Below are positions 2,358 to 24,375 of a stretch of DNA of 64,000 nucleotides, one piece after another. Position numbers and translations under genes: made by a program. Source of the stretch: Singulisphaera acidiphila DSM 18658. GTDB taxonomy: Bacteria; Planctomycetota; Planctomycetia; Isosphaerales; Isosphaeraceae. The notes beneath the pieces are model-generated. The model was not told the DNA's origin and made no database searches. It saw only the letters and a list, made by a program, of their open reading frames with translations. Each line of letters opens with the position of its first letter. Positions within the stretch are counted from its first letter, which is position 1. Where the stretch lies: assembly GCF_000242455.2 (NCBI RefSeq), contig NC_019892.1:7698744-7762743 (forward strand), read 5' to 3'.

Positions 2358-3715
2358 CTGGTGTTTTGCAAAGTCAGGATAACCCCAGCTGAGCCACGAC
2401 ATGTTCATAGGGTTGCTCAAATTGCGTGACTTGCTCGATCGCCCACGAGAGCGTCGTCCGCAGGGCTTCCCTCGTCATCGCCCGACAGGCCTCGCCGATG
2501 GTCATCAGCCGATGGAGTGCCCACTCCTTCGCACGACCCTGCTTCAACTCGCTCATGAGCAGACTGTACGCCAGCATGACCAGGTACATATGCCGGGTCT
2601 GGCCCTGGACATCACGCAACTGACAGTCACCCAACCCGAGTTGTTGCTTGCCGTCCCGATGGAACGTCTCCGTGCCTGTCCAGCGATGGCGGTACACCCG
2701 CACGATCCGACTCACCTCCCAGGTAATCCGATTCGTCACCAGGATCTTGCAGCACGTCCCGTCGTTGCGGTAGTGCCAGAGGATGACAATCCGCACCTTG
2801 TGGTTCACCCCGGGGATTCGGACCGTCACCGTGAAGTACCACTGGCGACGGTCGCCGATCCTCATCGCTTTGCGGTCCTCCACCGGGATCGACGCCGCCA
2901 ACTCGTTGGCCTTGAGGATCCCCCCCTTCCACTCCAACTTGCGGTTGGTCTTGAGATCGCCCACGTAACCGTGGGGCCGTCCCAACCGATCCTGCTTCCC
3001 ATCAATGTGGTTGAGGACCTCGGCGTTGGTGAAGTAGCAGTCCATGGCGAAGTCGCCGGGGATTCCCCGCTCGCAGACCCAATCGATCAGCTCGCAGCAC
3101 AAGGCGGTATGGTTGCGGAACGGCTCGTCCAAGGCTTCGCAGACCTCTTGCTTGCGGAAGAGCCGGAACTCCAGGGGGTAGTGCTTGCCGCTGGTGCAGA
3201 CGTAGTTGACGAAGAGATAGTCCTGGGCGATCTTGTTCCGCTCTTCGGTGTGGTCCCAGAACCAGTTGGCGTCGGGAATCAGCATCCCGTCCCGATCGAC
3301 GAGAGTATTGTCGATCGGGATGACGCCCTGAACGCTGTAGCGAGTGGAGGGCTCCTTCTGGAGTTGCTCGAGCCTTCGATCGTTGAGCGTCTCGGGGTCC
3401 CACTGGGCGGCGGTGAGGAAGCGATTGAGGCAGGATTGGTCGGTGGTCTGGGCGAACTCGTCATGAATGCCGAGGACGGTTTTCCGGTCGGCGACGAACA
3501 GGCCGGTGAGGTACTCGGCGAAGTGGCGACGTTGGCACTCATTGGCGAAGAGGTCGCCGTGCTGGGTCAGGGCGGCTTCGACCAGCTTGGGAAATTCGAT
3601 AATTCCAGGCATAAGCCGATGCTCCGCAGTCCAACTGCGCCAGAGCAATTTGGGCAAAACTCGAGCCTCGTCTACCTATTTTAACGCTGCCGCGGACCAG
3701 TTTGCAAAATACCAG
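2358..3715 (-). mobile_element. IS4-superfamily insertion sequence with 7-bp target duplication
   Basis: The element is 1,358 bp. Its ends are inverted repeats beginning CTGGTGTTTTGCAAA at 2358 and, read from the other side, CTGGTATTTTGCAAA at 3715. It is flanked by the direct repeat TTAGGAA at 2351-2357 and 3716-3722, the target duplication. A 7-bp duplication fits the ISPepr1 subgroup of the IS4 family better than IS701 (usually 4 bp), but the subgroup call is from memory and uncertain. It carries a single transposase gene and interrupts a leucine-rich repeat gene. Intact ends and an undamaged transposase suggest a recent, possibly active insertion. Confidence 0.88.
2374..3612 (-). CDS. IS4-superfamily DDE transposase
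   Basis: The 412-residue transposase begins at MPGIIEFPKLVEAAL, with a GGAG about 9 bases upstream; an earlier TTG start at 3657 is possible. The N-terminal region (RRHFAEYLTGLFVADRKTVLGI, TTDQSCLNRFLTAAQWD) is typical of IS4/IS701-like enzymes. Visible DDE elements are VIPIDNTLVDRDG (first Asp), FAMDCYFTNAEVL (second Asp) and YRHRWTGTETFHRDGKQQLGL (Glu in the YREK-like signature). No frameshift or internal stop is present, so it is likely functional. It fills nearly the whole element. Confidence 0.85.
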   Translation of the reverse strand: MPGIIEFPKLVEAALTQHGDLFANECQRRHFAEYLTGLFVADRKTVLGIHDEFAQTTDQSCLNRFLTAAQWDPETLNDRRLEQLQKEPSTRYSVQGVIPIDNTLVDRDGMLIPDANWFWDHTEERNKIAQDYLFVNYVCTSGKHYPLEFRLFRKQEVCEALDEPFRNHTALCCELIDWVCERGIPGDFAMDCYFTNAEVLNHIDGKQDRLGRPHGYVGDLKTNRKLEWKGGILKANELAASIPVEDRKAMRIGDRRQWYFTVTVRIPGVNHKVRIVILWHYRNDGTCCKILVTNRITWEVSRIVRVYRHRWTGTETFHRDGKQQLGLGDCQLRDVQGQTRHMYLVMLAYSLLMSELKQGRAKEWALHRLMTIGEACRAMTREALRTTLSWAIEQVTQFEQPYEHVVAQLGLS

Positions 3716-5000: not shown

Positions 5001-6762
5001 CCTGGATTTCTCACCCTATTCTTTCGGGGTCCGATCGCTCGACGATTTCGACGGCTCGCCCCCGCCACCCGCGGCCTGCGTGGTCTCCCGCTTGCTCATC
5101 ACGTCGGCGTGGACCTGATCGGACCTCTTCACGCCAACGCGAACCTGGTTCCTCAGGCCCCCGCGCCCAGGCGGGGGCGCACCCCGATCCTCACCCCTCC
5201 TCAGGGAGGGGCTTTCCCGCCTCATTTGACTGGGTCTCCTCGTTTCAGCACCTCGGGATCAAGGGCCCCGACCGCGCCAAGTTGGTGTGCACACGCCGAA
5301 ACACTTCCGCATACGGACAACCGCTCGAGAACTTCACCCACACCTTGCGAACCGTCACCCGCACCAACGCCCCGATCTTCAAGAGCTTCAGACGGATCGT
5401 TTGGCACTGCGCCTCGGCCATCGCCGTTCCCGCCAGCCCCAGCCGCCGCAACGCCTCCAGCAACACGTAGGCGATCGAGGAGAAGAACAGCCGGATCTGG
5501 TTGGCACGCATCGTGTGGGCACTGGTCCGATCGGCGAACAGATGGAGTTGCTGCTCCTTGATCCGGTTCTCCATCTCACCGCGACCGCAGTAGTCTTGCT
5601 CGTACAGCGGCGGCGCCGCTCGTTCCTCGACCGTGAGCGACGTGACCACGAACCGCGGGTTGGCCCCCTTGCCCAGATGCTCGGCCTTGGCCACCACCCG
5701 ACGTTCTCGGCTCCAGGTCTTCTGCGTTTGATAACGCAACTCGGCGAAGACCCGGGACGGCTGTTTCGTCGCCTCGAATTGCTGGCGTGCTTGGGCCAAT
5801 TCCGTCGCGATCGCCGCCGTCAGCCGGGTGTTCTTGGCCAGGCCGATCAGGTAATCCACGCCGTTGTCCTCACACCAGCGAAGGATCTCCTCGCGGCAGA
5901 ACCCGCTGTCGGCGCGGATCAGGATCTTCACCTGAGGCCACGCCTGGCGGATCTGCGAGACGATCCGCTTGAGGGACTTCACCGAGCCGGCGCTGGCATC
6001 AATGTCGGAGGGACGCAGCCGGGCACAGAGCAGGTGGTCGCCGCAGAAGATGTAGAGCGGGAGATAGCAGTATCCCTTGTAGTAGCCGTGGAAAAAGCGG
6101 CCAAGTTGGCGGCCATGGACCGTGTCGTCGGTGGCGTCGAGGTCCAAAACGATCCGCTCGGGGGGTCGGCTGTGGGCCTGAAGAAAGAGGGTAACGAAGA
6201 GCCGTTCGACCTCATGGGTCTGACAGGTGATCTTCTTGTAACGGCTCTGTCCGTCGGCCCCGACAGGGGTCAGTTCCAAGCGGTTGAGGGTACTCTTGCC
6301 AGCCAGCGGCTTGCCGCGATCGCGGAGCCGTGGCCGGTCCTGGCCGGTGGGATCGGTCTTGCCGACGACGGTGGCCAGTAACGGATCGCAGCGGAGATCG
6401 TCGTGGTCGTTGAGGTCTTCGTAGCCCAAGGCCAGACCATAGACGCGTTGGGCCAGGAGGTGTTCCAGGGGGTGCTCGACGAGGTCAGGATCGCGATGGT
6501 CGGTAAAGCAGGCGGCGAACTGGCGGATGATCCCGGTGCGGGCTTCGATCTGACGGAGCAGAAGTGCACCGCCGTCGGAAGAGATGGCGCCCCCGTCAAA
6601 ATCGGCGAGCACTTGGCGGTGACCGAGGATGGAAAAGTCGAGGTAAGTCGAGTTACACTCTGTAGCCATCGGGCTGCCTTGGTTCGGTGTCAAAAGTGGT
6701 TGTCGCAATTCCACCTATGACACGCAAGGCAGCCCGATTCAATCCCTGGTGAGAAATCCAGG
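5001..6762 (-). mobile_element. IS1380-family insertion sequence, complete
   Basis: The element is 1,762 bp. Its ends are perfect 15-bp inverted repeats, CCTGGATTTCTCACC at 5001-5015 and its complement at 6748-6762. The 4-bp direct repeat TTAG flanks it at 4997-5000 and 6763-6766, as expected for IS1380, which makes 4-5 bp duplications. About 245 bp between the left end and the transposase stop are non-coding. Everything needed for transposition appears intact. It lies directly against an IS66 remnant on the right. Confidence 0.93.
5245..6669 (-). CDS. IS1380-family transposase
   Basis: The 474-residue transposase begins at MATECNSTYLDFSILG. Family marks are FDGGAISSDGGALLLRQIE near the N-terminus, the catalytic Asp in IVLDLDATDDTVHGRQ, FFHGYYKGYCYLPLYIFCGDHLL, the second Asp in KILIRADSGFCREEILRWCE, and the Glu-bearing YCGRGEMENRIKEQQLHLFADRTS. 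The length is usual for the family and no lesion is seen. A longer in-frame start at 6714 exists, but MATECN matches the usual family beginning. Confidence 0.93.
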   Translation of the reverse strand: MATECNSTYLDFSILGHRQVLADFDGGAISSDGGALLLRQIEARTGIIRQFAACFTDHRDPDLVEHPLEHLLAQRVYGLALGYEDLNDHDDLRCDPLLATVVGKTDPTGQDRPRLRDRGKPLAGKSTLNRLELTPVGADGQSRYKKITCQTHEVERLFVTLFLQAHSRPPERIVLDLDATDDTVHGRQLGRFFHGYYKGYCYLPLYIFCGDHLLCARLRPSDIDASAGSVKSLKRIVSQIRQAWPQVKILIRADSGFCREEILRWCEDNGVDYLIGLAKNTRLTAAIATELAQARQQFEATKQPSRVFAELRYQTQKTWSRERRVVAKAEHLGKGANPRFVVTSLTVEERAAPPLYEQDYCGRGEMENRIKEQQLHLFADRTSAHTMRANQIRLFFSSIAYVLLEALRRLGLAGTAMAEAQCQTIRLKLLKIGALVRVTVRKVWVKFSSGCPYAEVFRRVHTNLARSGPLIPRC

Positions 6763-7299: not shown

Positions 7300-8718
7300 T
7301 CAGGGAGACGTTTCACTAGCGGCGATCGGTTTTGTGGGATCGATCAGCGTCCAGCATAGGGCGGCCAGGACAAACACCGTCACGTACGTCGCGAATGCCG
7401 ACTCATAGCCGGAAAGGACGGCAAGATGCTTGTCGAGCTTGGGGAGTTGACTGAGAGTGAGGTTCTGCGCGGCCGCTCTCGTCGCGAGGGATTGCTCGAC
7501 CAGCGTCCCAGTCAACCAGCCGGCCAGCGCATTGCCAAGGGTTCCGATCGTGTTCATGCAAGCCGCGGTCACCGCAGCGTGCTCACGGCCCAGATCCTGA
7601 CAGGTTGCCCAGGACGAGCCGAGGGTCAGGTCGATGCAAAAGGCGGCCAGCGAGATCAGGAGGCAGAACAAGTGAACGTTCTCGGTGTGGCTGGCCCCCC
7701 ACCAGCAGGCTGCCCCCGTCGAGAGCGCGGCGATGCCCAAGACGCGCCGGGCCCGGCGTCGATCCCCCAGGAGTCGGGCCAATCCGTTCACACAGAAGCC
7801 GCCTAAGAAACAGCCGGCCGCTCCAATCCAGAGGGGCGCCCCTTTATACATCGCGCCTAGCTTGTCCGCCGACGTCAACCCGAAGCGTTCTTCGATATAC
7901 GTGGGCAGATACGTCATGTTGAATGCCCAGGCGTAGTTAATGAAGAAGTACATCAAGCAGAGCGCCCACAAGCTCCGATTGGTGAGCAACGCCCGCCAGG
8001 GGACGGCCGAGTGGGTAGTCGAAGAATTCCACTCCGAGCCGATCAGGTCGCGTTCCGCGTCGTTGACTCCTGGGTGATCGTCGGGGCGGTCACGAAACCA
8101 GAGGCCGAACGCAACGCACCAGACCAGGCCGATCATGCCGAAAAGGAGGAAGGCCGACCGCCAGCCCATCAGTGGCGCAGACGTGGCCGTTCCACCGACG
8201 AGAATCGCCAGGATCAGCGGGGTGAGACCGCCAATGAGGCGGCCCGACATGAAGACCAAGCCCTGAGACATCTCCCAGCTACGGGCGGGAAACCAGTTGT
8301 GAAGCGCCCGCGTGATATTGGGGTAGGCACCCGCCTCACCCGCACCGAAGAGGAAGCGCAAGGCGATGAGAGCGCCGAGGCCACCGACCAAGGTGCCGCC
8401 AACGCGAAGGCCGACCGCGGCGGTCAGGGCGGTGCAGACCGACCACCAGGCCACGATCCGGATCAAGGTGCGACGCGGCCCCAGGAGGTCGCCCATCGCC
8501 CCGGCCGGAATTTCGAACACGGCGTAGGCGATCGCAAACGAGGTGATCGCCCACTTGAGCTGGGAGACGTCGCTCAGGCCAAGCTCGCCCGCAATCGACG
8601 GAGCCGCCACGCCGAAGCAGGCCCGGTCGAGATAGGTGATCATCGACAGCGTGCAGGCAAACCCGAGGACACGGTAGCGGACCCCGGTTGGCGCGGCGGG
8701 AGGAGACTCCGTCATCAA
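7300..8718 (-). CDS. MFS transporter, ACS-family-like
   Basis: This 472-residue inner-membrane protein has about 12 hydrophobic segments. The sequence near the start (MITYLDRACFGVAAPSI), the loop GDLLGPRRTLIRIVAWWSV and the region GAGEAGAYPNITRALHNWFPARSWEMSQGL match the anion:cation symporter group of the major facilitator superfamily, which carries sugar acids such as glucarate, galactonate and hexuronates. Its start codon overlaps the stop of the preceding enolase-superfamily gene (ATGA at 8715-8718), so the two are translationally coupled. As last gene of the catabolic operon it most likely imports the operon's substrate. The exact substrate cannot be read from the sequence. Confidence 0.88.
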   Translation of the reverse strand: MMTESPPAAPTGVRYRVLGFACTLSMITYLDRACFGVAAPSIAGELGLSDVSQLKWAITSFAIAYAVFEIPAGAMGDLLGPRRTLIRIVAWWSVCTALTAAVGLRVGGTLVGGLGALIALRFLFGAGEAGAYPNITRALHNWFPARSWEMSQGLVFMSGRLIGGLTPLILAILVGGTATSAPLMGWRSAFLLFGMIGLVWCVAFGLWFRDRPDDHPGVNDAERDLIGSEWNSSTTHSAVPWRALLTNRSLWALCLMYFFINYAWAFNMTYLPTYIEERFGLTSADKLGAMYKGAPLWIGAAGCFLGGFCVNGLARLLGDRRRARRVLGIAALSTGAACWWGASHTENVHLFCLLISLAAFCIDLTLGSSWATCQDLGREHAAVTAACMNTIGTLGNALAGWLTGTLVEQSLATRAAAQNLTLSQLPKLDKHLAVLSGYESAFATYVTVFVLAALCWTLIDPTKPIAASETSP

Positions 8719-9836
8719 GATGACTCGCTGATGAGGACGGAACGAACGAAGTCTTCGTTGATCGTGACACCAAGGCCAGGGCGGTTAGGCACCTTGATCC
8801 AACCGTCCTCGGCCTGAATCTTCTCCAGAGTCAGCTCGTGCCGAAGCGGGGAATCCTCGACGCAGTCTTCGAAGAGGAAGGCATCGCGGCAGGTAGACAG
8901 CCAGTGCAAGCTGGCAGCGGCCGTGACCGGGCTGGTGTAGCAGTGGTTGCAGAGCCGGGCGCCAATCTCCTCAACGCGCTGCCGGATGTAAGCAGCTTCG
9001 GTGAAGCCGTTGCGCGAGAGGTCGACCTGGTAGACGTCGAGGCAGCGGCCGTCGATCAAGGGGCGGAACGACTGCCGCCCGCACTCTTCCTCGCCCGAGG
9101 CGATGGGGACGGGGGAACGGTCGCGGAGCCAGCGATAGCCCTCGTAATCGTCGGGCCCGAGCGGTTCCTCGAGCCAGCCGATCTTGTAGTCGGCAAACGC
9201 CTTGGCTCGCTCGAGCGCGGTGCGGGCATCCCAGACGCACCCGGCGTCGATCAAGAGTGTGGCGTCATCGCCCAGGCCCCGCCGCGCTCCGGCGACGAGG
9301 TCGAGGTCGACGGCCTCGCTCTGCCCCATCGGCTCCCAGCCGAATTTGACCGCGCGGTAGCCGGCCTCGCGCCAGCGACGGCCGATTGCCGCAGTTTCCT
9401 TGCCGTCGCGTCCGAACAGGATCGAGGCATACGCCGGGAAGCGGTCGTGGAGCTTCCCCCCCAGGAGCCGGTGGATCGGCTCGCCAAAGTGCTTGCCCTT
9501 GAGGTCCCAGAGGGCCATATCGATGGCCGCCATCGCGGTGATGGTCGTCGACCGGCGGCCGCAATACATCGTCCGGCGGTACATCTTCTGCCAGATCCGC
9601 TCCGTTTCGAGCGGGTTCTCGCCAATCAACAGCGCACGCAGACCGGTCGCGATGTTGTGGCTGAACGGGGCGTCGATGATGGCCTTGACCATCTCCGGCG
9701 ACGAGTCAGCCTCGCCGATCCCTTCCAACCCATTGTCCGTCCTGACACGGACCAGGACGGAGTCTTGGCTGCTCGCCGTCTTGGCCTCGACATTCTGGAT
9801 CCGCAGGATCTGGCAAACGATCTCAGTGATTTTCAT
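8715..9836 (-). CDS. Mandelate racemase/muconate lactonizing enzyme family protein
   Basis: This 373-residue enolase-superfamily enzyme begins at MKITEIVCQILRIQ. The capping domain is followed by the barrel with metal ligands in LLIDAGCVWD (Asp), WLEEPLGPDDYEGYRW (Glu) and IASGEEECGR (Glu), and a candidate base in LCNHCYTSPV (His). At the Lys-x-Lys position it reads AVKFGWEPMG, so the second lysine is replaced, as in some acid-sugar dehydratases. Family knowledge places it as a dehydratase or racemase of a sugar acid or hydroxy acid. The coupled MFS gene and the GntR regulator support a catabolic role. A longer start at 9872 is possible but adds residues unlike the family. Confidence 0.88.
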   Translation of the reverse strand: MKITEIVCQILRIQNVEAKTASSQDSVLVRVRTDNGLEGIGEADSSPEMVKAIIDAPFSHNIATGLRALLIGENPLETERIWQKMYRRTMYCGRRSTTITAMAAIDMALWDLKGKHFGEPIHRLLGGKLHDRFPAYASILFGRDGKETAAIGRRWREAGYRAVKFGWEPMGQSEAVDLDLVAGARRGLGDDATLLIDAGCVWDARTALERAKAFADYKIGWLEEPLGPDDYEGYRWLRDRSPVPIASGEEECGRQSFRPLIDGRCLDVYQVDLSRNGFTEAAYIRQRVEEIGARLCNHCYTSPVTAAASLHWLSTCRDAFLFEDCVEDSPLRHELTLEKIQAEDGWIKVPNRPGLGVTINEDFVRSVLISESS

Positions 9837-9881
9837 GCACGCTTCCGGACGGGTGAGTGTGGGGCCAGCCAAGGAACCGAA

Positions 9882-10913
9882 TCAGGCGGAAATGTCGCGA
9901 CCGACAACGACGATGTGCTGGCCTCGAGGAATCTGGGAAGCCCAGGCCTGAGCGAGGACGACTCCATCGACTCCAGCCACCGCAGGCCAGGGATCCATGT
10001 CGATATGATCGAAATCGTGCAGCAGGCCGACGGTATCGCCACGACGTACCGCCGTACCGCATTCCACCAGCGGTTCATAATGGCCGTCGAAAGGGGCGAC
10101 GGTAAAGCAGTCGCGGTCGACCATCTCCAACGTACGCTGAGTCCCCGCCTTGTGATAGTCGATCGGCTCGATCTCGCCCCGAAGCTGGCCTTGATGGATC
10201 GCCGCCGCGAGCACACCGTGCTTGCCGTAGCGGACACCATCGACGTTCACGGCGCGACCCCAGCCCAGTTCGGTCCCGACCGTGATCTTGCCCAGCCGCT
10301 CGGCCTCGCTCGGGAGCAGGCCGGGGGTGATGTTCTGGTAGACCATCAGGCAAGGCGTGCCGAACCAACGGGCGGTCTGCTCGATCTCGGCGGCCAGCGC
10401 GGGGTCGTCAACCGGGTGGTAATTGGCGCAGAGGGCGAAGCGGGCCACGTCACCGCCGGAGTGGAGGTCGAGGACGGTGTGGACTCGGGGCCAGATCGAC
10501 GACCGGACGAAGGCAGCGATCCGGTGGGTGATGCCGGCCAGGGCCGGAGTGACTCCCGCTCCCTCGACGAACGCTCGGTTCAGGTTGACGCCGTCGTCCC
10601 CCTGGCTCTCGCGGGTCCCTGTGCGAAAGGCGGACGGGTTCAGCACGGGGATGATGATGATCCGGCCGCGAACGTCCTCAAGGCGGATCTCACGCAGCAA
10701 GTGCTTGAGGGCGACCGGCCCTTCGTACTCATTGCCGTGGTTGGATCCGAAGGCGACGAGACCGCGGTCGGGTTGCGCCTCAGGGCCCACCCAGACCGTC
10801 AAAGGGAGCAAATGGTCGCCCCAGATGCTGTCGTGTTCCAGAGCAACCCAGTAGTCGCGCCGGCCGGGGGAATCGAGGTCGAGTCGATCGGGGCGAGCCA
10901 CAATGCGTGTCAT
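9882..10913 (-). CDS. Succinylglutamate desuccinylase/aspartoacylase-family hydrolase
   Basis: This 343-residue protein begins at MTRIVARPDRLDL. The zinc site is visible in VAFGSNHGNEYEGPVAL (His and Glu) and VHTVLDLHSGGD (second His). GVNLNRAF corresponds to the substrate-binding Asn-Arg of the M14-like AstE/AspA fold. The C-terminal half (VAPFDGHYEPLVECGTAVRRGDTVGLLHDFD) is the usual beta-rich domain. The enzymes cleave N-acyl amino acids or related amides. It sits between the DUF1501 gene and the enolase-superfamily gene on the same strand, so it probably acts on the same imported compound, perhaps removing an acyl group. The residues upstream of this start (to 11018) overlap the DUF1501 stop and look non-native. 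Confidence 0.85.
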   Translation of the reverse strand: MTRIVARPDRLDLDSPGRRDYWVALEHDSIWGDHLLPLTVWVGPEAQPDRGLVAFGSNHGNEYEGPVALKHLLREIRLEDVRGRIIIIPVLNPSAFRTGTRESQGDDGVNLNRAFVEGAGVTPALAGITHRIAAFVRSSIWPRVHTVLDLHSGGDVARFALCANYHPVDDPALAAEIEQTARWFGTPCLMVYQNITPGLLPSEAERLGKITVGTELGWGRAVNVDGVRYGKHGVLAAAIHQGQLRGEIEPIDYHKAGTQRTLEMVDRDCFTVAPFDGHYEPLVECGTAVRRGDTVGLLHDFDHIDMDPWPAVAGVDGVVLAQAWASQIPRGQHIVVVGRDISA

Positions 10914-10962
10914 CGGTTCGGTCTTCCCGCGTGATATTGATGAAAAAAAAGGGGGAGCAAGC

Positions 10963-12396
10963 TCAGGCCAGGATTGAGCGCACAACCTGTCCATGAACGT
11001 CGGTGAGACGAAAATCACGGCCGGCGTAACGGTAGGTCAATCGTTCGTGGTCGAACCCGAGCAGGTGCAGAATGGTAGCGTGAAAATCATGGACGCTGAC
11101 CGGATCTTTCACCGCCTTGAACCCAAAGTCGTCCGTGGCACCATGGATCGTCCCGCCTCGGATGCCACCGCCCGCCATCCAGACGGTGAAACCGTAGTGA
11201 TTATGATCGCGGCCAAGTGCGGACTTGCCGTTGCCGTCGAGCTCGACGGTGGGCGTACGACCGAATTCGCCCCCCCAGATCACAAGGGTGTCCTCGAGCA
11301 TCCCCCGCTGTTTCAGGTCCGTCAACAGGGCCGCGATCGGCTGGTCGATTTCGGCCGCCAGCTTGCGATGATTCTGCTCGATCTGGGCGTGATGATCCCA
11401 AGGTTGTCCCGCACCATGCCAGAGCTGGACATACCGGACGCCACGCTCGAGAAGCCGGCGGGCAATCAAGGTCTGACGGCCGTGGACCCCGTTGCCATAC
11501 GATTCGCGGATGTACTGGGGCTCGCGCGCGATATCGAACGCGTCGGCGGCCTCCATCTGCATGCGGAAGGCCATCTCGAACGACTGGATCCGGGCATCGA
11601 GCCGAGCATCAACCCGTGGTTCGCGATGCTCGGCGTTCAGGGAGCGCAAGAGATCGAGCTGCCGGCGCTGGACGGCCTGGGTGGCGTGCGGGCTGCGGAT
11701 ATTCTCGATCAGCTTGTCGATTTCGGTATGCTGGGGGTCGATGAACGTGCCCTGGAAGATCCCTGGCAGGAAGCCCGATTGCCAGTTCTCCGAGTCCTTG
11801 ATCGGTAAGCCGCTGGGGCACATCGCCACGAAGCCAGGGAGGTTCTGGTTCTCGGTGCCGAGCCCATACATCACCCAGGCGCCGACGCTGGGTCGGGAGA
11901 GCACCGAATCACCGCAGTTCATGAGCATCAGTGATGGCTCATGATTGGGCACCTGGGCGACCATCGAGCGGATGACGGCGATATCGTCGATGTGCTGCGC
12001 CGTTCTGCTGAACAGCTCGCTGACCTCGATCCCGCTCTGTCCGTACTTCTGGAATTTGAACGGCGAAGGGAACGCCGCGCCGGTCTTCCGCTCCGTCGTG
12101 AGATTTTCCGGGGCGGGCTGGCCCGCATACTTCAAGAGAGCCGGCTTGGGGTCAAACGTATCGACCTGGCTGGGGCCGCCGTTGAGGAAGAAATGGATGA
12201 CTCGCTTCGCTTTGCCCGGAAAGTGGGGCAACTTCGTCGCCAATGCATCCCCTGCCCCGCCTTCGAGCGACGGCCCTGCGTACACCTTTTGCGCACTGAA
12301 CAGGTCGCCCAAGCCGAGCGCACCCAGGCCGAGCGCGGAGCGTTGGAGCAGGCTTCTGCGGCTCATTCGCGATGGATCTTGCGTGTGGTCAGGCAT
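10963..12396 (-). CDS. DUF1501 domain-containing protein
   Basis: This 477-residue protein has a twin-arginine-like signal near its start (SRRSLLQRSALGLGALGLGDLF) and is probably exported folded. The body has sulfatase/alkaline-phosphatase-like features typical of DUF1501: VIHFFLNGGPSQVDTFDPKP, SLMLMNCGDS, GMLEDTLVIWGGEFGRTPT and HDFHATILHLLGFDHERLTYRYAGRDFRLTDVHG. In planctomycetes DUF1501 genes are nearly always paired with a DUF1549/DUF1553 protein. Here that partner is immediately upstream and the ends lie 22 bases apart. The biochemical activity of the family is not established. Confidence 0.92.
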   Translation of the reverse strand: MPDHTQDPSRMSRRSLLQRSALGLGALGLGDLFSAQKVYAGPSLEGGAGDALATKLPHFPGKAKRVIHFFLNGGPSQVDTFDPKPALLKYAGQPAPENLTTERKTGAAFPSPFKFQKYGQSGIEVSELFSRTAQHIDDIAVIRSMVAQVPNHEPSLMLMNCGDSVLSRPSVGAWVMYGLGTENQNLPGFVAMCPSGLPIKDSENWQSGFLPGIFQGTFIDPQHTEIDKLIENIRSPHATQAVQRRQLDLLRSLNAEHREPRVDARLDARIQSFEMAFRMQMEAADAFDIAREPQYIRESYGNGVHGRQTLIARRLLERGVRYVQLWHGAGQPWDHHAQIEQNHRKLAAEIDQPIAALLTDLKQRGMLEDTLVIWGGEFGRTPTVELDGNGKSALGRDHNHYGFTVWMAGGGIRGGTIHGATDDFGFKAVKDPVSVHDFHATILHLLGFDHERLTYRYAGRDFRLTDVHGQVVRSILA

Positions 12397-12418
12397 GGCT
12401 CGATGATCCCCGTTTGGT

Positions 12419-15400
12419 TCAGTCAACGAACATCAATTCGTTCGCCATCAGAAGCACCTGGGCCAGTTGTTCCCACGGTTTCAGTTGGCGGGTGGGGGGG
12501 CCGGAAAAATCACGTGCCGAATCCCAGGTCGCAGCCGTCCCCTCGGAGTCGCCCAGTTCGCGGATCTTGGCGGTCCAGAGGTGCTGATCACTGTTCAGGC
12601 CATCGCGGATGTCGACAACGAAATCGATCGTATCGCCAGGCTCGACGACGATCGAGTCGACGTTGAAATCAAGTCGTGTGTTGTGGACGGGGGCCGACTT
12701 GAGGACGCCCTGGCGGCTCGAAACGAGCCAGCCACGGACACCGTCACCGGTAGCCTCCGCATGCACGAGGGTCGACTGGATCGCCACCTTCCCTCGGATC
12801 GGGGCAGTCCAGCGCCGGATCGCGGCGTGCTTGAGATCATCCCCAGGATGGCCCCCTTGGCCGGTGAGTTGCACCCAACCGAGCTTCGCGTCGGGCCATT
12901 GCGGACCGCCGCTCCATGCCGATCCATTGAAATGGGGCAACCGTTGAAAATCACCACGCGACGGGCCCGAAGTGGGATCGACCGCCCCGAAGCCATATTG
13001 CCAGGCGAGGGTCTCGGGGGGGACGGCCGGGGTCCCCTCGTTGATGGGCGCGGCGAGGAAAGAGCGGGCCGCCCGTCGTTGTGAGTCGGTCGGATCCCGC
13101 TGGTAGACCGCGCGAAAGAGCCGTCGGATCGCAAGGTCGGGATCGCCGGTCGGGAGTTGAGCCGCCAAGATCCGGGCACGGTCGGCGAGGAACGGGTGGT
13201 TCATCGCGAAGAGGGCCTGTTGAGGGACGGTCGTTTCACTCCGCGTTGGAATATGGAGGTCGGGATTGGCGAAGTCGAAGACGCGGAGCACGCTCGGAAG
13301 GAACTGGCGGTCCACCAAGCCATAAAGGGACCGGCGAGCGTTGGTCCCCGTGGTGGGGAACAGGTTCGTGGACCGGCCCCCCATACCATGGTCGAGTTCT
13401 CCGGTCACGGTGAGGAGAGTGTCACGCGCTTCCTCGAAGGTGAGACGGCGGGGATTCATCCGCCAGAGCAACCGATTCTCAGGGTCGACTTTCAAGGCCA
13501 GGTCGCGGGTCGCGGCGTCCGCCGGGCTACCCGATTGCTGTTGATAGGCGGCCGAGAGCAGAATGAGCCGGTGGATGGCCTTGGTGCTCCAGCCTTCACC
13601 CACCAAGCGACGCGCGAGCCAATCGAGCAATTCGGGATGACTCGGCGCTTCGGCCCGAATGCCAAAGTCGCTGGGCGTACGGACCAGCCCCGCGCCGAAG
13701 TGGTGCATCCAGACTCGGTTGACCCAGACCCGGGCCGTCAGCGGGTTGGACGGATCGATGATCGCGCGGGCCAGCTCCAGGCGACCACTCCCGTTTGCGA
13801 ACGGCTTCCGGTCCGGCCCCGCAATCGCCAGGAGGAACTGGCGAGGCACCTCGTCGCCCCGATTCGCCGAACTTCCCCGCTTGAAGATCCGCGGCTCGCG
13901 AAGCTCCGCGCGATCGACAACGGCCACCGCATGCGGCGGAGCCTGAGGCGACTGAATGAGCCACCGATCCACCTCCCCCTGGAGGGTCCACAACTTGACG
14001 ACCGTGCCGGAGTCAAAAAACCACTCCGTCGTCACGATCGGCTCGTCAGGCACCTGACAAGGGGATCGATCCGCATAGAGGACTTGCCGCAGGGCTTCGT
14101 CATCCGGGTCGGACAAGATTTTGGGGAGAGTCGAGGCGTTCGAACCGGCAGGTTTCTGCGACTCCTGCCAGCGGCGATCGACCTCGCCGAAAAGCTTGGC
14201 ATAGCGATCGGCAACCTCTTGGATCGTTGCCGGCGGAGTGGCAAACGAATCCGCAACTCTTCGATTCAAGGCAGGCGCATCGCTCTGAATCAGTGCTTTG
14301 GCCACGATCGGGGCCTGGGTGGCGAACTCGGAGTCGCTCAAAGCCGCGAATCGACGCCAAGGGCGAAAAATCGGGTCATCGGCCTTCGCAGCGTTGGCGA
14401 GGTAGGCCTGCCAGCGGCGCACGAAGCCCGGAATCAGATCGTCCGCGCCAAGGACGGTGTCAAATCCCTCCTGGGGAACCTTCGACAGATCGCGCTGCAC
14501 GAGCAGATACGCCGCGATCCGGTCGCGAACCCGCTTCGACGCCTCGGCCCGACTTTCCGCCATCCCTTTGCGCTGATTCTCGCGACGCACTTCGAGCTCT
14601 TTCTCGAAGGTCCGATAGGCGTCATCCCGCGCAGCCGGTTCGGCGATCGGCACCAGGCGCTCGGTGCAGTTCTGAAAGACCCCGTAGAGCGAGTAATAAT
14701 CGGCGGTCGGGATCGGGTCATACTTGTGGTCATGGCAACGGGCACAGGCGACTGTCATCCCCATTGTGCCACGGGTGAGGACGTCGATCCGGTCGTCGAT
14801 GATGTCGTGGGTCACCCCGAGGAAACGGCGGCCGACGGTCAGGAAACCCATCGCCGCCAGCGCCGAGCGGTCGTCAGGCTCGGCCTGGTCCGCCGCGATC
14901 TGATCGAGGAGGAACCGGTCGTAGGGAAGGTCGGCGTTGAATGCCTTCACGACCCAGTCCCGATAGGCCGGGGCCTGCACGAGGAATCGCTCTTCCCGAC
15001 CGTAGACGTAACCTTTGGTGTCCGCGTACCGCGCCACATCCAACCAATGCCGGGCCCACTGCTCACCATAATGGTCTGACGCGAGCAGCCGATCGACCAA
15101 CTTCGCATAGGCGTTGGGGTCGGTATCGGCAATGAAAGCGTCAACCTCTTCGGGAGTCGGCGGCAAACCGGTGAGATCGTAGCTCACCCGCCGGATGAGA
15201 GTATACCGATCGGCCTGGGGCGACGGAGCCAGCCCCTTCGCTTCCAGCCCGGCCTTCACGAACGCGTCGATTGGGGTTCGCCCCCAAGCGGCGTCACGGA
15301 CCTTGGGAGGCTGGGGGTCGGCGACCGGCTGGAACGCCCAATGGCGTGCCCAGGCCTCTTTGCGACGATCGACGACCGGTGCCTGGTCAGCGGGCCAAGG

Positions 15401-15769
15401 GGCCCCCGCAGCAACCCAACGCTCCAGAGCAGCGATCTGCTCAGGGGCAAGTTTCCGGCCGGGGGGCATCTTGAGGTCGCCGTCCTGGCGAACCGCCTCA
15501 ATGAGCAAACTCTCGTCCGGCCGCCCCGCGACGATCGAAGGCCCCGACTCACCCCCCTCAAGGAGGAATTGCCGAGCGTCCAGCCGCAGGCCCGCTTTCT
15601 GTTTCTCCGCGCCATGGCACTTGCCGCAGCTTTCGACCAGGAGCGGACGGACGTCCTTCTCAAACGCCTCGAGCTCCGCCGTCGGCTGCCCCAAGAGGAC
15701 GACCTGAAGCGAGGCGACGAGGGCCGTCGTCAAACACACGATTCGGAGTCGAAGCCGGTCATCAGGCAT
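12419..15769 (-). CDS. PSD1 and planctomycete cytochrome C domain protein (DUF1549/DUF1553)
   Basis: This 1,116-residue exported protein has a signal peptide over about residues 1-28. A heme-binding CGKCH (48-52) follows in the planctomycete cytochrome C domain, which reads EKDVRPLLVESCGKCHG and continues to LKMPPGRKLAPEQIAALERWVAAGAPWP. Next come DUF1549 (TPIDAFVKAGLEAKGL, YGEQWARHWLDVARYADTKGY) and DUF1553 (LARAIIDPSNPLTARVWVNRVWMHHFGAGLV, MNPRRLTFEEARDTLL). The C-terminal ~200 residues form a beta-rich region. It is the first gene of the operon and its start lies close to the operator array. Family proteins are thought to be periplasmic redox enzymes, possibly acting on polysaccharide-derived or sulfated compounds, but this is unproven. 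Confidence 0.93.
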   Translation of the reverse strand: MPDDRLRLRIVCLTTALVASLQVVLLGQPTAELEAFEKDVRPLLVESCGKCHGAEKQKAGLRLDARQFLLEGGESGPSIVAGRPDESLLIEAVRQDGDLKMPPGRKLAPEQIAALERWVAAGAPWPADQAPVVDRRKEAWARHWAFQPVADPQPPKVRDAAWGRTPIDAFVKAGLEAKGLAPSPQADRYTLIRRVSYDLTGLPPTPEEVDAFIADTDPNAYAKLVDRLLASDHYGEQWARHWLDVARYADTKGYVYGREERFLVQAPAYRDWVVKAFNADLPYDRFLLDQIAADQAEPDDRSALAAMGFLTVGRRFLGVTHDIIDDRIDVLTRGTMGMTVACARCHDHKYDPIPTADYYSLYGVFQNCTERLVPIAEPAARDDAYRTFEKELEVRRENQRKGMAESRAEASKRVRDRIAAYLLVQRDLSKVPQEGFDTVLGADDLIPGFVRRWQAYLANAAKADDPIFRPWRRFAALSDSEFATQAPIVAKALIQSDAPALNRRVADSFATPPATIQEVADRYAKLFGEVDRRWQESQKPAGSNASTLPKILSDPDDEALRQVLYADRSPCQVPDEPIVTTEWFFDSGTVVKLWTLQGEVDRWLIQSPQAPPHAVAVVDRAELREPRIFKRGSSANRGDEVPRQFLLAIAGPDRKPFANGSGRLELARAIIDPSNPLTARVWVNRVWMHHFGAGLVRTPSDFGIRAEAPSHPELLDWLARRLVGEGWSTKAIHRLILLSAAYQQQSGSPADAATRDLALKVDPENRLLWRMNPRRLTFEEARDTLLTVTGELDHGMGGRSTNLFPTTGTNARRSLYGLVDRQFLPSVLRVFDFANPDLHIPTRSETTVPQQALFAMNHPFLADRARILAAQLPTGDPDLAIRRLFRAVYQRDPTDSQRRAARSFLAAPINEGTPAVPPETLAWQYGFGAVDPTSGPSRGDFQRLPHFNGSAWSGGPQWPDAKLGWVQLTGQGGHPGDDLKHAAIRRWTAPIRGKVAIQSTLVHAEATGDGVRGWLVSSRQGVLKSAPVHNTRLDFNVDSIVVEPGDTIDFVVDIRDGLNSDQHLWTAKIRELGDSEGTAATWDSARDFSGPPTRQLKPWEQLAQVLLMANELMFVD

Positions 15770-15864
15770 GGTAAAGCTCGCTCGAACGCCTGGGGGTCGG
15801 GATAGCGAGTCGATCGCGCCTTCTCGAGAAGAGCGTCGAGGCAGGAGAAGTCATTCCCTCAGAG

Positions 15865-15899
15865 GATCGTAGACAATCCAGACACGATTGTCGACAATC
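15865..15899. promoter_or_regulatory. GntR/FCD operator pair 1
   Basis: Box a is GATCGTAGACAATC (15865-15878), one base off a perfect dyad. Box b is GATTGTCGACAATC (15886-15899), a perfect palindrome. Box starts are 21 bp apart, about two helical turns. The core TTGTnnACAA matches the operator style of FCD-type GntR regulators. This pair is nearest the start of the PSD1 operon (15769). Confidence 0.8.
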
Positions 15900-15970
15900 T
15901 GCCGACGATTTCCTGAAGATTCGCGCCCAAGATCAGCGGATGTTGAGTCGAAAAATCTACCTCTCCAGAG

Positions 15971-16005
15971 GATTGTAGACAATCGGCACGTGATTGACGA
16001 CAATA
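15971..16005. promoter_or_regulatory. GntR/FCD operator pair 2
   Basis: Box a is GATTGTAGACAATC (15971-15984), a perfect dyad. Box b is GATTGACGACAATA (15992-16005), with two departures from the dyad. The spacing between box starts is again 21 bp, and the pair begins 106 bp after pair 1. Confidence 0.8.
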
Positions 16006-16071
16006 ATCCCACTCACACATCCATCGGCCTCTTCAAAAAAAATCCACAAAAGCAGTCCTCTTCGCCCGGAA

Positions 16072-16106
16072 GATTGTAGACAATCAAGACGTGATTGGCG
16101 ACAATC
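16072..16106. promoter_or_regulatory. GntR/FCD operator pair 3
   Basis: Box a is GATTGTAGACAATC (16072-16085), a perfect dyad. Box b is GATTGGCGACAATC (16093-16106), with one departure. Spacing is 21 bp, and the pair begins 101 bp after pair 2 and 154 bp before the regulator start. Confidence 0.8.
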
Positions 16107-16189
16107 GGTCGACACGGTCTTGATGGACGTGTGCCTTCCTTTCCGATCTGTCCGATGATTAGCCACGGTTTCTCAGTTTTTGGTCAGAA

Positions 16190-16213
16190 CCGAATCCGCC
16201 TGGGCGGATTCGG
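16190..16213. promoter_or_regulatory. Perfect 11-bp inverted repeat before the GntR gene
   Basis: CCGAATCCGCC and its complement GGCGGATTCGG are separated by two bases. It ends 46 bases before the regulator start. It could be a further dyad binding site or an RNA hairpin in the leader. Its sequence differs from the six operator boxes. Confidence 0.55.
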
Positions 16214-16259
16214 TGCGCGGTGCTATGTCAACACTTTTGGCCCCTGAGATCTATCCCCC

Positions 16260-16889
16260 ATGGCAGCGATTGATGAAGAAGCAGCCGATTCTCCAGGATC
16301 AAGCCGGATTGCCAATCAACTGCGTGAAGAGATTCTCTCGGGTCGGATTGAAGTCGGCTCGAGATTGACCGAGGCCGAACTCTCGAAGCGGTTTGGCGTG
16401 GGGCGGGGCCTGGTCCGCGAGGCGGTTCAGACGCTCTCGTTGCAAGGTCTCCTGGTGAGCCGACCGAATCGGGGGGCAATCGTGGCCCCCGAAGCGCCTC
16501 GGGAGATCCGCAATCTCATCGTCCCGATCCGGCGCACACTCGAAGTCTATGCGTTGCAATTGACTTTCGACGAGCTGCACGAGGAAGACTTTATTCTCTG
16601 GGAAGAAATCCTCCAACGCATGCAGGACGCCTGCGAACATCGCGATTACCACGCGATCGCCGAGGCGGACATTGCCTTCCATCGTGTGCTCGTGAAGCGG
16701 GCAGGCCAGCCCGACCTGATCCTCATCTGGGAAACCCTGGTCGGCCGCATCCGGTTCCATTTCCGACGGACCCAACGTCGGTACGAAAACGCGATGGAGA
16801 TCTACGAGGAACACCGGGCCATCCTGGAATCGTTCCGCGGTCAAGATCTTGCAAGCGCGACTCGGTTGCTCAAAGAAAAGATTGCCTGA
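16260..16889 (+). CDS. GntR-family transcriptional regulator, FCD type
   Basis: This 209-residue regulator has a winged helix-turn-helix over about residues 15-80 ([58 protein letters not shown]). A helical FCD domain follows. Its metal/effector residues are visible in [15 protein letters not shown] (Asp and His) and [14 protein letters not shown] (His). FCD regulators usually repress catabolic genes and are released by a sugar acid, organic acid or acyl compound. It is divergent from the PSD1-DUF1501-hydrolase-enolase-MFS operon, with three operator pairs between them, so control of that operon plus autoregulation is likely. No good ribosome binding site precedes the ATG, so the start is less certain. 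Confidence 0.9.
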
Positions 16890-17131
16890 TTCGCAGTCGG
16901 CAGAACGCGGCTACCACCTGGACCGCACACATGAATCCAATTATGCAAATAATTTCACATCAAATAAATTCAACAAACAAATCAATTCCTAACTGTAGTC
17001 AGAACTCTTTGGAGCGGAAATCGAAAGCAGATCTCTCGTCCCGTCCGAGTCCATCTCTCCAGAGCAGAAGGGTCTGGCTGTTTGACCTTCATCACACGTC
17101 AGTCTTCAACCCCGGTAAGGAGAGTCCTCTC

Positions 17132-18121
17132 ATGCGCCGTCGCGGCTTTACCTTGATCGAATTGCTGGTCGTCATCGCCATCATCGCCGTTTTGATCGCG
17201 CTGCTCCTCCCCGCCGTTCAGGCGGCCCGCGAGGCAGCGCGGCGGTCTCAGTGCGTCAACAATCTGAAGCAGATTGGCCTGGCTATGCACAACTACCACG
17301 ACACGCTTGGTAGTTTCCCTTCAGGCTCGATGGTGAACACCGGCTGGAGCGGCCCTTGGTGGGCATGGTCCGTGTTCATCCTGCCTCAAATGGAGCAAAC
17401 CAACCTCTACAACGCGATCAACTTCTCGCTCGGCAATGGAGGGAACATGAGCGTCGAGCACAGGACCGTTTACAGGTCACTGATTGCGACATATCTCTGT
17501 CCTTCGGATGACTCGAACCGGCTGTTTGACGATCGTAAGTGGACGAATATCAATGATCTGGGCACCTCGTATTCGGCCGCCCCGCTGAACTACATCGTAA
17601 GTTGGGGTGATCAAAAGACGGGAAACCCGATTTTCGACATCTATTCCACGGAAGGGGCGGGCCGGGGCTGGGGCTGTAATAACACGTTCACCGGCATGTT
17701 CGGTGATTGCAGTTCGGGCGCGGTGACGACAATTGCGAGTTGTACTGACGGAACCAGCAATACCTTCCTGGCCGGCGAGAATTCGCCCAACTATAACGGG
17801 CAACTCCTCTGGGTCAACGGCCACGGAGCCTACGGTGGGACGATCATCCCGCTGAACTGGAAGACGAACCTCAAAGATGGTGAAACAGACCCGACCGATG
17901 GGACGGTGTGCAGCACAGCCTACATCACCGCAATCGAGGCGACCCACTGTTTCCGCAATCAGGTCTACAATTTCGCCTTCAAGAGCAAGCATCCGGGGGG
18001 GGCCAACTTCTGCTTCGCCGACGGTTCCATTCGATATATCAAGCAAACCATCAATCCGAGAACCTACGCTGCGCTCAGCACTCGGGCCAAGTCCGAGGTG
18101 ATCTCGGCCGACTCCTACTAA
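17132..18121 (+). CDS. DUF1559 domain-containing pseudopilin-like protein
   Basis: This 329-residue protein starts at [20 protein letters not shown], with a GGAGAG about 8 bases upstream. Longer in-frame starts add a non-homologous leader. The class III (prepilin) signal GFTLIE is followed by one hydrophobic helix, then [32 protein letters not shown] and a large beta-rich domain. The C-terminal H-x9-DG motif reads [17 protein letters not shown]. The family is expanded in planctomycetes and presumably processed and displayed like type II pseudopilins; the function is unknown. A small lipoprotein gene follows 103 bases downstream, the common arrangement. The 240 bases upstream are AT-rich and probably hold its promoter. 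Confidence 0.93.
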
Positions 18122-18224
18122 CCCTCATCTCTGGGACGACGGCCAAGCAGGATCCGCCATGCCGAGCCCAAAACGGATCGACATGGCGGCTCACTCCAAC
18201 GAGATCCATCGCCGGGAGACAACC

Positions 18225-18791
18225 ATGCACGCTCGAGCATTCATTATCTGTACTTACGCCGCAATCTTGACTGCGATCGCCGGTTGCGGTTCGGGCAATG
18301 GACTTCATCTCGCCAAGGTCCGTGGCAAAGTGACGTACAAGGGCCAACCGATCACCTACGGCACGATCATGTTCGAGCCCGACAGTGCACGTGGCACGAA
18401 CGGTCCGTCGGCCGTCGGCTCGATTACGGGCGACGGCTCATTCGTCATGTCAACCGAGGAATCGGGCGATGGTGCCGTCGTCGGCTTGCACCGCGTGGCG
18501 GTGGTCGGGCTTGAAGCGATGCCGGACGCCCCGCAAAAAGCGTTACCCGATCCCGTGACCTCGCCCAGGGAGTTCATGATCGCCAAAACCCAGGCGGGGA
18601 CCCGCCTCAATTTCACGAAGAAGGCCGAAGCCCCCACCTTTACCGACAAGAACGGAAAGGTGTTTCGAATCACGATCCCGGAAAACCTTGGCAATCCCAG
18701 TACGTCCAACATCAAGGCAAGTGTGGGCCGCGGCTCGAACACCGTGAACATCGCGATCAATGAAAACGGGACGGCGGAAATCTCTCACTGA
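18225..18791 (+). CDS. Small lipoprotein, transthyretin/carboxypeptidase-regulatory-like
   Basis: The 188-residue protein starts MHARAFIICTYAAILTAIAGC. The lipobox IAGC places the acylated cysteine at residue 21. A beta-sandwich-like domain follows (KVRGKVTYKGQPITYGTIMFEPDS, GDGSFVMS, GLHRVAVVG). This is the pattern of small planctomycete lipoproteins encoded next to DUF1559 genes. A purine-rich site (GGGAGAC) precedes the ATG. It is likely co-transcribed with the pseudopilin gene and may decorate or stabilise the pseudopilin structure; that last point is inference. Confidence 0.85.
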   Translation: MHARAFIICTYAAILTAIAGCGSGNGLHLAKVRGKVTYKGQPITYGTIMFEPDSARGTNGPSAVGSITGDGSFVMSTEESGDGAVVGLHRVAVVGLEAMPDAPQKALPDPVTSPREFMIAKTQAGTRLNFTKKAEAPTFTDKNGKVFRITIPENLGNPSTSNIKASVGRGSNTVNIAINENGTAEISH

Positions 18792-22257: not shown

Positions 22258-24207
22258 TCAGCCGAGGACCGGGTTGAGACCCATGTTCTTCCTCATCTCG
22301 GCGCGTTGTTTTTCGTAGTTCATGAGCATCTTGCGGTCGCGAAAGTGCTGCCGTTCTTTCCTCGCCTGGGCGCTGAGTACAAGCCGGCGCATCGAGCCGC
22401 TGGTCAATTCGCCTCGGTCCTTGTAGCGTCGGCGAATCCGGGCGGCCGGTTTTTCGCCGTAGGCATCGATGATCTCGTCTTCGAGCGAGACGAAGAACTG
22501 GCAGTGCCCGGGATCGCCCTGGCGAGCGCAACGACCGGCGAGCTGGCGATCGATCCGCCGCGACTCGTGCCGCTCAGTCCCGATCACATGGAGCCCGCCG
22601 CTCTTGGAAATCTCTTCGGTCAGCTTGATGTCGGTTCCTCGGCCGGCCATGTTGGTGGCCACCGTCACGCGACCCGGCTGCCCGGCCTGAGACACGATCT
22701 GAGCTTCAATCTCGTGGTTCTTGGCGTTCAAGATTTGATGTTCGATCTTGGCGGCATTCAAGAGCGCACTGAGTTTCTCCGACTTCTCGATTGAGCGGGT
22801 ACCGATCAGCACAGGCACTTGCAGCTTGTGCCACTCGACGATCTGATCGGCCACTGCCTGGAACTTTTCCGACTCGTTGGAAAAGATCCGGTCGTCGACC
22901 CAGACCCGGCGACAGCGGCGGTTGGTGGGAACCTTGAACACCTTGACCTTATAGATCCGGCGCAGCTCCGCCGCATCGCTCGACGCCGTCCCGGTCATCC
23001 CGGCGAGCTTCTTGTACTTCAAGAAGAAGTCTTGCACGGTCACCCGCGCGGCGGTGATCGTCTCGAGAGTCACTTCGAGCTTTTCTTTGGCCTGGATCGC
23101 CTGGTGAAGACCGTCCTGCCACTGGCGGCCGGGCATCATACGGCCGGTGAACTCATCGACGATGACGATCTCGTCGCTGGAGACCACGTAATCGCGGTCC
23201 CTCAGGTAGGCGATCTGAGCGCGAAGGGCCCGCTCGACATACTCGTAGAGTCCATCCACCGTCAGGGTGACGAACGACGAGTGGCCGGCGACGGCCTGCA
23301 CCTTGCGGCGTCCGGATGCGTTCAGTTCGGCCTTGCGCTCGGCCGGGTCGTACTTGAAGTCCTTGGTTCGGATGAGCGTCGCGGCGAGCTCGTCGGCCCC
23401 GAAGTAAGCGGCGGCTTCCTCCTGAGTCGGCTGGTTGTTCGCTCCGATAATCAACGGGGTTCGGGCTTCGTCAATCAGAATGCTATCGGCTTCGTCCACG
23501 ACCGCGAAGTGGTGGGTGCGCTGGACGGGGGTCTCTGATTCGGCGTGAGTGCCCGTGCCGAGAAAAGCTTGCTCGAACGACTTGCGATGGGTGTCCCCAA
23601 GTTGGAGCCGCTTGAGCTCATCGCGGAGGAAGTCGAAGCCGAACTCCTTGCTCGTCCCATAGGTGATGTCAGCGGCGTAGGCCGAGCGACGGACCGGATC
23701 GGGTTGACCGGTCTGGATACAGCCGACGCTCATCCCGAGCAAGTTGTAGATCGGCGTCATCCACTCGGCGTCACGGGACGCGAGGTAGTCGTTCACCGTG
23801 ATGACGTGAACGCCCTTACCTTGTAAGGCATTCAAGTAGGTTGGAAGCGTGGCGACGAGAGTCTTGCCTTCTCCGGTCTCCATCTCGGCGATACAGCGGT
23901 TATGGATCGCCGCGCCGCCGACCATTTGCACGTCGTAGTGCCGCTGTTTGACGGTCCGCTTGGCCGCCTCGCGGACCAGGGCGAAGGCCTCGACGAGCAT
24001 GCCGTTGAGCGAGTCTCCCTGACGTGCCTTGAGCTTGAGCTGTCGGCTCCGCTCGGCAATCTGGGCATCGCTCTCCTTTTCCAGCATCGGCTCCATCGCG
24101 TTGATTTGCGCCGCGTAGACAGCGTAACGGCTGAGCCGCCCTTGATGGGTCGGTCCCGCGATCGTCCGCATCTGGTTCAACCACTTCGGGCCCAGTCGAC
24201 TCGCCAT
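22258..24207 (-). CDS. Short SecA-type translocase ATPase
   Basis: This 649-residue protein carries the SecA motor. Walker A is EMETGEGKT (about 109-117), Walker B is VVDEADSILIDEARTPLIIG, and a complete preprotein cross-linking domain follows (VDGLYEYVERALRAQIAYLRDRDYVVSSDEIVIVDEFTGRMMPGRQWQDGLHQAI). The second motor domain has MTGTASSDAAELRRIYKV, NMAGRGTDIKL and GTERHESRRIDRQLAGRCARQGDPG. It ends about 75 residues after that, so the helical wing/scaffold and zinc-binding tail of normal SecA (about 850-950 residues) are largely absent. The start at 24207 (MASRLGPKWLN) is fixed by AGGAGGAG about 9 bases upstream; the longer frame to 24315 has none. It is probably a paralogue, not the housekeeping SecA. 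Confidence 0.87.
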   Translation of the reverse strand: MASRLGPKWLNQMRTIAGPTHQGRLSRYAVYAAQINAMEPMLEKESDAQIAERSRQLKLKARQGDSLNGMLVEAFALVREAAKRTVKQRHYDVQMVGGAAIHNRCIAEMETGEGKTLVATLPTYLNALQGKGVHVITVNDYLASRDAEWMTPIYNLLGMSVGCIQTGQPDPVRRSAYAADITYGTSKEFGFDFLRDELKRLQLGDTHRKSFEQAFLGTGTHAESETPVQRTHHFAVVDEADSILIDEARTPLIIGANNQPTQEEAAAYFGADELAATLIRTKDFKYDPAERKAELNASGRRKVQAVAGHSSFVTLTVDGLYEYVERALRAQIAYLRDRDYVVSSDEIVIVDEFTGRMMPGRQWQDGLHQAIQAKEKLEVTLETITAARVTVQDFFLKYKKLAGMTGTASSDAAELRRIYKVKVFKVPTNRRCRRVWVDDRIFSNESEKFQAVADQIVEWHKLQVPVLIGTRSIEKSEKLSALLNAAKIEHQILNAKNHEIEAQIVSQAGQPGRVTVATNMAGRGTDIKLTEEISKSGGLHVIGTERHESRRIDRQLAGRCARQGDPGHCQFFVSLEDEIIDAYGEKPAARIRRRYKDRGELTSGSMRRLVLSAQARKERQHFRDRKMLMNYEKQRAEMRKNMGLNPVLG

Positions 24208-24375
24208 GACCCGTGCTCCTCCTCGGCTGACCTTCAAGATGTTCTTACCGAACGATCGGGCCAGTTCTGCCCGGCTCTCATCATGCGATTTGAGCGCTTG
24301 CCCCGCCGCGCGCAAGCTTCCCGATCAACGGGACAGCGATCCCGCCTATTCTCCCGGGACGAAACCATCCGGCTC

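Follow-up and report, generated by a model that had tools for sequence, protein, structure and literature searches.

The window analyzed here is a stretch of 64,000 nucleotides from Singulisphaera acidiphila DSM 18658, in which a 490-bp intergenic region separates two divergent genes. The one on the plus strand (16260–16889) codes for a transcriptional regulator of 209 amino acids with an N-terminal GntR winged helix (PF00392, E 1.9e-15) and a C-terminal FCD domain (PF07729, E 1.8e-18), both matches above cut-off, i.e., a member of the FCD/FadR subfamily of the GntR family. On the minus strand, the gene of a PSCyt1-PSCyt2-PSD1 (DUF1549/DUF1553) protein (12419–15769, assigned by its domains and by the divergent synteny in relatives; PSD1 from here on) is the first of a putative operon that continues, on the same strand, with a DUF1501 protein (10963–12426, PF07394, E 9.9e-149, also syntenic), a DoeB-like deacylase of the AspA/AstE type (9882–11018, PF24827; TIGR02994 at 177 bits, under its cut-off of 402.7), an enolase-superfamily (MR/MLE) enzyme resembling acid-sugar dehydratases (8715–9872, PF13378 and PF02746; galactonate dehydratase models below cut-off) and an MFS transporter resembling those of D-galactonate (7300–8718, PF07690; TIGR00893 at 166 bits, below cut-off). 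The profile matches of these enzymes and of the transporter were searched for a ligand of the regulator and none was identified, all of them being below the equivalog cut-offs. Just downstream of the MFS gene there are three different transposase genes or remnants (292–1137, 2374–3657 and 5245–6714). Elsewhere in the window, 22258–24315 codes for a SecA-like protein of 685 amino acids (SecA_DEAD, P-loop and preprotein cross-linking domains), possibly an accessory SecA, with FtsQ-, MurB- and Mur-ligase-like neighbours.

The intergenic region contains, between 15865 and 16106, six dyads of the type GATTGTnnACAATC grouped as three pairs, putative operators whose predicted owner is the GntR/FCD regulator. 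A first-pass annotation of this DNA had described three repeats, each with two dyads whose starts lie 21 bp apart, and the distance was indeed exactly 21 bp in all three. Unit 1, proximal to PSD1 (15865–15899), is GATCGTAGACAATC-CAGACAC-GATTGTCGACAATC, with box 1 at 15865–15878 and box 2 at 15886–15899 scoring 11 and 12 out of 12 against GATTGTnnACAATC. The middle unit 2 (15971–16005) reads GATTGTAGACAATC-GGCACGT-GATTGACGACAATA, box 3 at 15971–15984 scoring 12 and box 4 at 15992–16005 scoring 10. Unit 3, proximal to gntR (16072–16106), is GATTGTAGACAATC-AAGACGT-GATTGGCGACAATC, where box 5 (16072–16085) and box 6 (16093–16106) score 12 and 11; none of the units is assigned to a strand. Five of the six boxes are therefore perfect or one base off, instead of the four counted originally. 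The attribution of the core TTGTnnACAA to the operator style of FCD-type GntR regulators, and of the adjoining divergent gene to that type, finds support in the sequence and in the two domain matches given above.

The dyad array is not a product of chance. Over 2000 dinucleotide shuffles of the 490-bp region we obtained a maximum of 2 dyads (mean 0.12) against the 6 observed, and not one 21-bp pair. The exact 14-mer GATTGTnGACAATC has three matches in the 9.76-Mb genome, all of them in this array (reversed control, 0), copies with a single mismatch located elsewhere are isolated, and matches to the close pair pattern are confined to the array. We also searched the genome for a wider regulon and found none, since the looser matches examined either overlapped or lay inside ORFs or were close to a divergent promoter that is apparently unrelated. 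This last case, close to where an apparent polyprenyl-synthase/dxs gene run begins, is a loose 21-bp pair of TTGTnnACAA-like boxes (L100:3713-3743, G000:C1:9457712-9457742; also L097–L099) that three Paludisphaera-type genomes and Singulisphaera sp. GP187 also conserve. It resembles a divergent promoter, does not adjoin this GntR gene, and is a caution for searches with loose patterns.

Orthologues or close relatives of the regulator were found in 10 of the 45 genomes of the family, counting the own genome, and nine further genomes of the phylum sample had more distant ones. Conservation of the dyads upstream of orthologues, on which the first-pass annotation had staked its proposal, was clear. 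The exact TTGTnnACAA was present within 420 bp upstream of 20 of the 25 orthologous or related regulator genes (0.22 expected) and in none of the first 420 bp inside those same genes. The search of related genomes for the paired motif, proposed at the same time, retrieved the 21-bp pair at every one of the ten loci, from nine Isosphaeraceae genomes, that have a close orthologue, and in G048, which belongs to another family. The window and GP187 have three pairs, G031b, G032 and G033 have two, and G001, G002 and G028 a single one. The locus of G031a has a degenerate pair, with boxes changed to TCTCGTCGACGATC and GATCGTCTACGATT that keep the 21 bp; this regulator (L015 / L021) is a Paludisphaera soli paralogue (71%) and adjoins a different PSD1/DUF1501 neighbourhood. 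In G011 there is a pair by gntR, with cores of 7/8 and no exact dyad, and a dyad by PSD1. Exact dyads were also absent directly upstream of gntR in G026, G050a and G054a.

The genes coding for the GntR regulator, PSD1, DUF1501, the AspA/AstE deacylase, the enolase-superfamily enzyme and the MFS transporter form a conserved catabolic cluster in the relatives, the enolase-superfamily gene being absent from G028 and G011 within the stretch examined. In the distant genomes G069, G078, G081, G066 and G050 the regulator gene is co-oriented with these genes and lies ahead of them, and in the first three a single dyad occupies the 17-bp spacer (counted by eye) between TTGACA and TACAAA or TACAAC. In G048 the 21-bp pair is located upstream of a gene run that goes from a DUF1559 gene to the enolase gene, and a single dyad is found by gntR. 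In the window, a DUF1559-type pilin-like protein and a probable lipoprotein are coded downstream of gntR on the same strand (16931–18791). Their relatives in G048 lie between the 21-bp pair and PSD1, which suggests that these genes share the regulon.

The pair-to-pair distances of 106 and 101 bp had been given correctly, but as helical turns they do not both come near an integer (10.1 and 9.6 at 10.5 bp per turn). The difference between them is half a turn, and the distances are 103 and 102 bp in GP187 and 56 bp in the Paludisphaera-type genomes. With unit gaps neither both integral nor conserved, and relatives that have only one or two pairs, the regular phasing over 240 bp that had been proposed does not stand, and the three units are not a helically phased array. 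Judging from the loci compared, the conserved unit is the 21-bp pair, in one to three copies per locus, and not a phasing of about 100 bp; since the distances between pairs vary, selection is evident only on the phase within the pair. This variation bears on the idea that a tetrameric FCD protein (a dimer of dimers) bridges units located ca. 100 or 200 bp apart in alternative repression loops. A precedent is Atu1419 of Agrobacterium, an FCD tetramer of the VanR group for which looping between palindromes at a distance of 190 bp has been proposed (PMC7797058), and units 1 and 3 are separated by 207 bp. Like in the window, the short palindromes of Atu1419 are located over the -10 and between the -10 and the -35, and looping is possible in both. 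However, they do not form 21-bp pairs, and the tetramer has been demonstrated for Atu1419 while the window regulator is known from its sequence. The lack of a conserved phase between units and the presence of a single pair in three genomes make looping an unlikely explanation.

Tandem duplication of whole segments of about 100 bp in recent times found no support, the inter-unit spacers having no significant similarity to each other (the best spacer-to-spacer comparison was matched by 6.6% of shuffles), and the duplication would be old or of the unit alone. A related question is whether one pair works and the other two are passengers, neutral leftovers of duplication, as the relatives with one or two pairs might suggest. 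In the same direction points G011, where an insertion of transposase-like genes (L085:7990-9820) separates the dyad by PSD1 from the pair by gntR. However, in the comparison of the window with GP187 the boxes of unit 2 were identical (28/28), whereas the flanking spacers conserved 48/71 and 52/66 positions, so that we regard the passenger explanation as rather improbable. Over the whole region the boxes were identical at 83/84 positions, against 16/21 for the 7-bp linkers and 301/385 for the remaining intergenic sequence (Fisher p 2.4e-7 for boxes versus elsewhere).

Overlooked in the first reading were the promoter-like elements that each pair contains on both strands. A consensus scan of 15700–16300 retrieved exactly six sigma-70-like sites, three per strand, where 0.3 were expected, and every one of them has its -35 in one box and its -10 in the partner box, with a 17-bp spacer. 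On the plus strand all three are TAGACA/17/GACAAT (15870–15898, 15976–16004 and 16077–16105 in units 1, 2 and 3), and on the minus strand they are TCGACA/17/TACGAT (15894–15866), TCGTCA/17/TACAAT (16000–15972) and TCGCCA/17/TACAAT (16101–16073), respectively. The minus-strand -10s look better than those of the plus strand, which are missing the first T. Among the relatives, G028 has one such site per strand, G048 a single one (TTGACA/17/GACAAT) and G032 three, all within pairs. With a synthetic consensus pair, a sigma-70-like site appeared only at spacings of 20–22 bp. The match is not independent proof of a promoter, because it follows from the dyad and the 21-bp spacing; still, the overlap offers a reason for the fixed distance. 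As the -35/17/-10 arrangement on both strands is possible only at 20–22 bp, the pair looks like an operator plus a predicted divergent promoter. Bacterial bidirectional promoters, i.e., symmetric DNA able to drive transcription in both directions, have been described by Warman, Grainger and colleagues (PMC12825309), with start sites 7–25 bp apart that result from overlapping -10s (PMC10268837). In the window, by contrast, each -10 overlaps the -35 of the other strand, and the start sites predicted from the hexamer positions would be about 46 bp apart.

All this raises the alternative that the dyads are mainly divergent promoter elements and not operators, their symmetry being derived from the -10 and -35 hexamers that overlap on the two strands. 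Besides the complete -35/17/-10 of every pair on both strands, the loose pair kept in relatives near the apparently unrelated divergent promoter would fit. However, there is conservation at dyad positions that fall outside all the hexamers (17/17 pairs for positions 11 and 12, 14–15 of 17 for 22 and 23), indicating that the dyads are not merely promoter symmetry. Moreover, in G069, G078 and G081 the dyad is in the spacer of the gntR promoter, outside the hexamers, and across families the dyads track the regulator gene. Promoter elements alone are thus a very improbable explanation of the array.

The reading of the dyads as operators agrees with what is described for the FadR subfamily in the sections of Suvorova et al. 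(PMC4494728) considered here. There, operators have GT/AC half-sites 2–3 nucleotides apart (consensus NyGTM-N0-1-KACNy), and TTGTAGACAA and TTGTCGACAA are of the form GT-2nt-AC. The divergons reported in those sections, like this locus, have two FadR-type palindromes at a fixed distance between the regulator gene and the divergent operon, and such constant-spaced double sites were interpreted as cooperative; the difference is that here there are three double sites. The portion of that work's phylum table considered here lists no planctomycetes. The arginines of the recognition helix are invariant in the 22 aligned relatives of our regulator and correspond to Arg45 and Arg49 of Atu1419 and FadR (PMC7797058). 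The histidine that is the last metal ligand of the FCD domain (LKEH in PDB 3fms) is replaced by lysine at the C-terminus of the window regulator (LLKEKI) and in close orthologues; several distant ones have histidine there. Given this replacement, metal binding by the FCD domain of the window regulator may be altered.

A close parallel in architecture comes from Escherichia coli, and it contradicts the earlier impression of an arrangement more elaborate than usual as far as the pair itself is concerned. D-galactonate catabolism is repressed there by DgoR, of the GntR/FadR family, which has two inverted repeats over its promoter as binding sites (PMC12288454); in the dgo operator of K-12 the centres of these TTGT-3nt-ACAA repeats are likewise separated by 21 bp (the second repeat was assigned here from the sequence). 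Both systems have an FCD regulator, paired inverted repeats with this spacing and a regulated operon that includes an enolase-superfamily dehydratase and a related MFS transporter, and in the window the units overlap predicted hexamers. On the other hand, the half-sites of DgoR are separated by 3 nucleotides and not 2, its operator is one unit and not three, and dgoR heads its operon while the gntR of the window is divergent. The regulator does not appear to be a DgoR orthologue, with no DgoR model among its NCBIfam matches (all below cut-off), and the operon departs from the dgoRKADT gene set, having no counterpart of dgoK or dgoA. In the dgo pair the consensus scan retrieved no promoter. An arrangement of several adjacent FCD dimers, putative in the window, is known from E. 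coli NanR, of which three dimers occupy one operator, (GGTATA)3 (PMC8012715). Those are tandem direct repeats with cooperativity through an N-terminal extension, in contrast with the palindromes spaced by 21 bp found here.

Altogether, we consider it likely that the six dyads are operators of the divergent GntR/FCD regulator, organized as three 35-bp units over divergent promoters, released by a ligand and with copies that tighten or grade the response. Each unit would be bound by two adjacent regulator dimers, both on the same DNA face and at a distance of two helical turns, and its two dyads would supply the -35 and -10 elements, 17 bp apart, of divergent promoters of the sigma-70 type. Occupancy of a unit would then block RNA polymerase both toward the PSD1-DUF1501-deacylase-enolase-MFS operon and toward gntR itself, until the FCD domain binds a ligand from the pathway, which might be an organic acid or a sugar acid, and the repressor is released. 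With three copies repression might be tighter or graded, and both ends of the lengthened intergenic region would be covered. Binding, repression, promoter activity, ligand and the purpose of the triplication are what we infer here from sequence, and repression rather than activation is assumed from the habit of the family. We advance only tentatively, as a possibility, that the 35-bp unit is dual-coded, in that the same DNA serves as two FCD operators with cooperative binding and as two divergent promoters that overlap, and that it was tripled in Singulisphaera giving a graded divergent switch.

Since the inverted repeats of DgoR are likewise 21 bp apart, the pair is a known architecture, of which the triplication and the two-strand promoter overlap in a planctomycete are a variant. 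What the array multiplies is a bacterial switch of a familiar kind, and the system is not of a new type. With it, the conserved planctomycete regulator and its PSD1/DUF1501 operon have an operator code that can be tested, and the loci with one, two and three pairs are a natural series in which to ask what benefit operator multiplication brings. If the pair is truly an operator and a divergent promoter at once, the 21-bp spacing would have a structural reason beyond helical phase.
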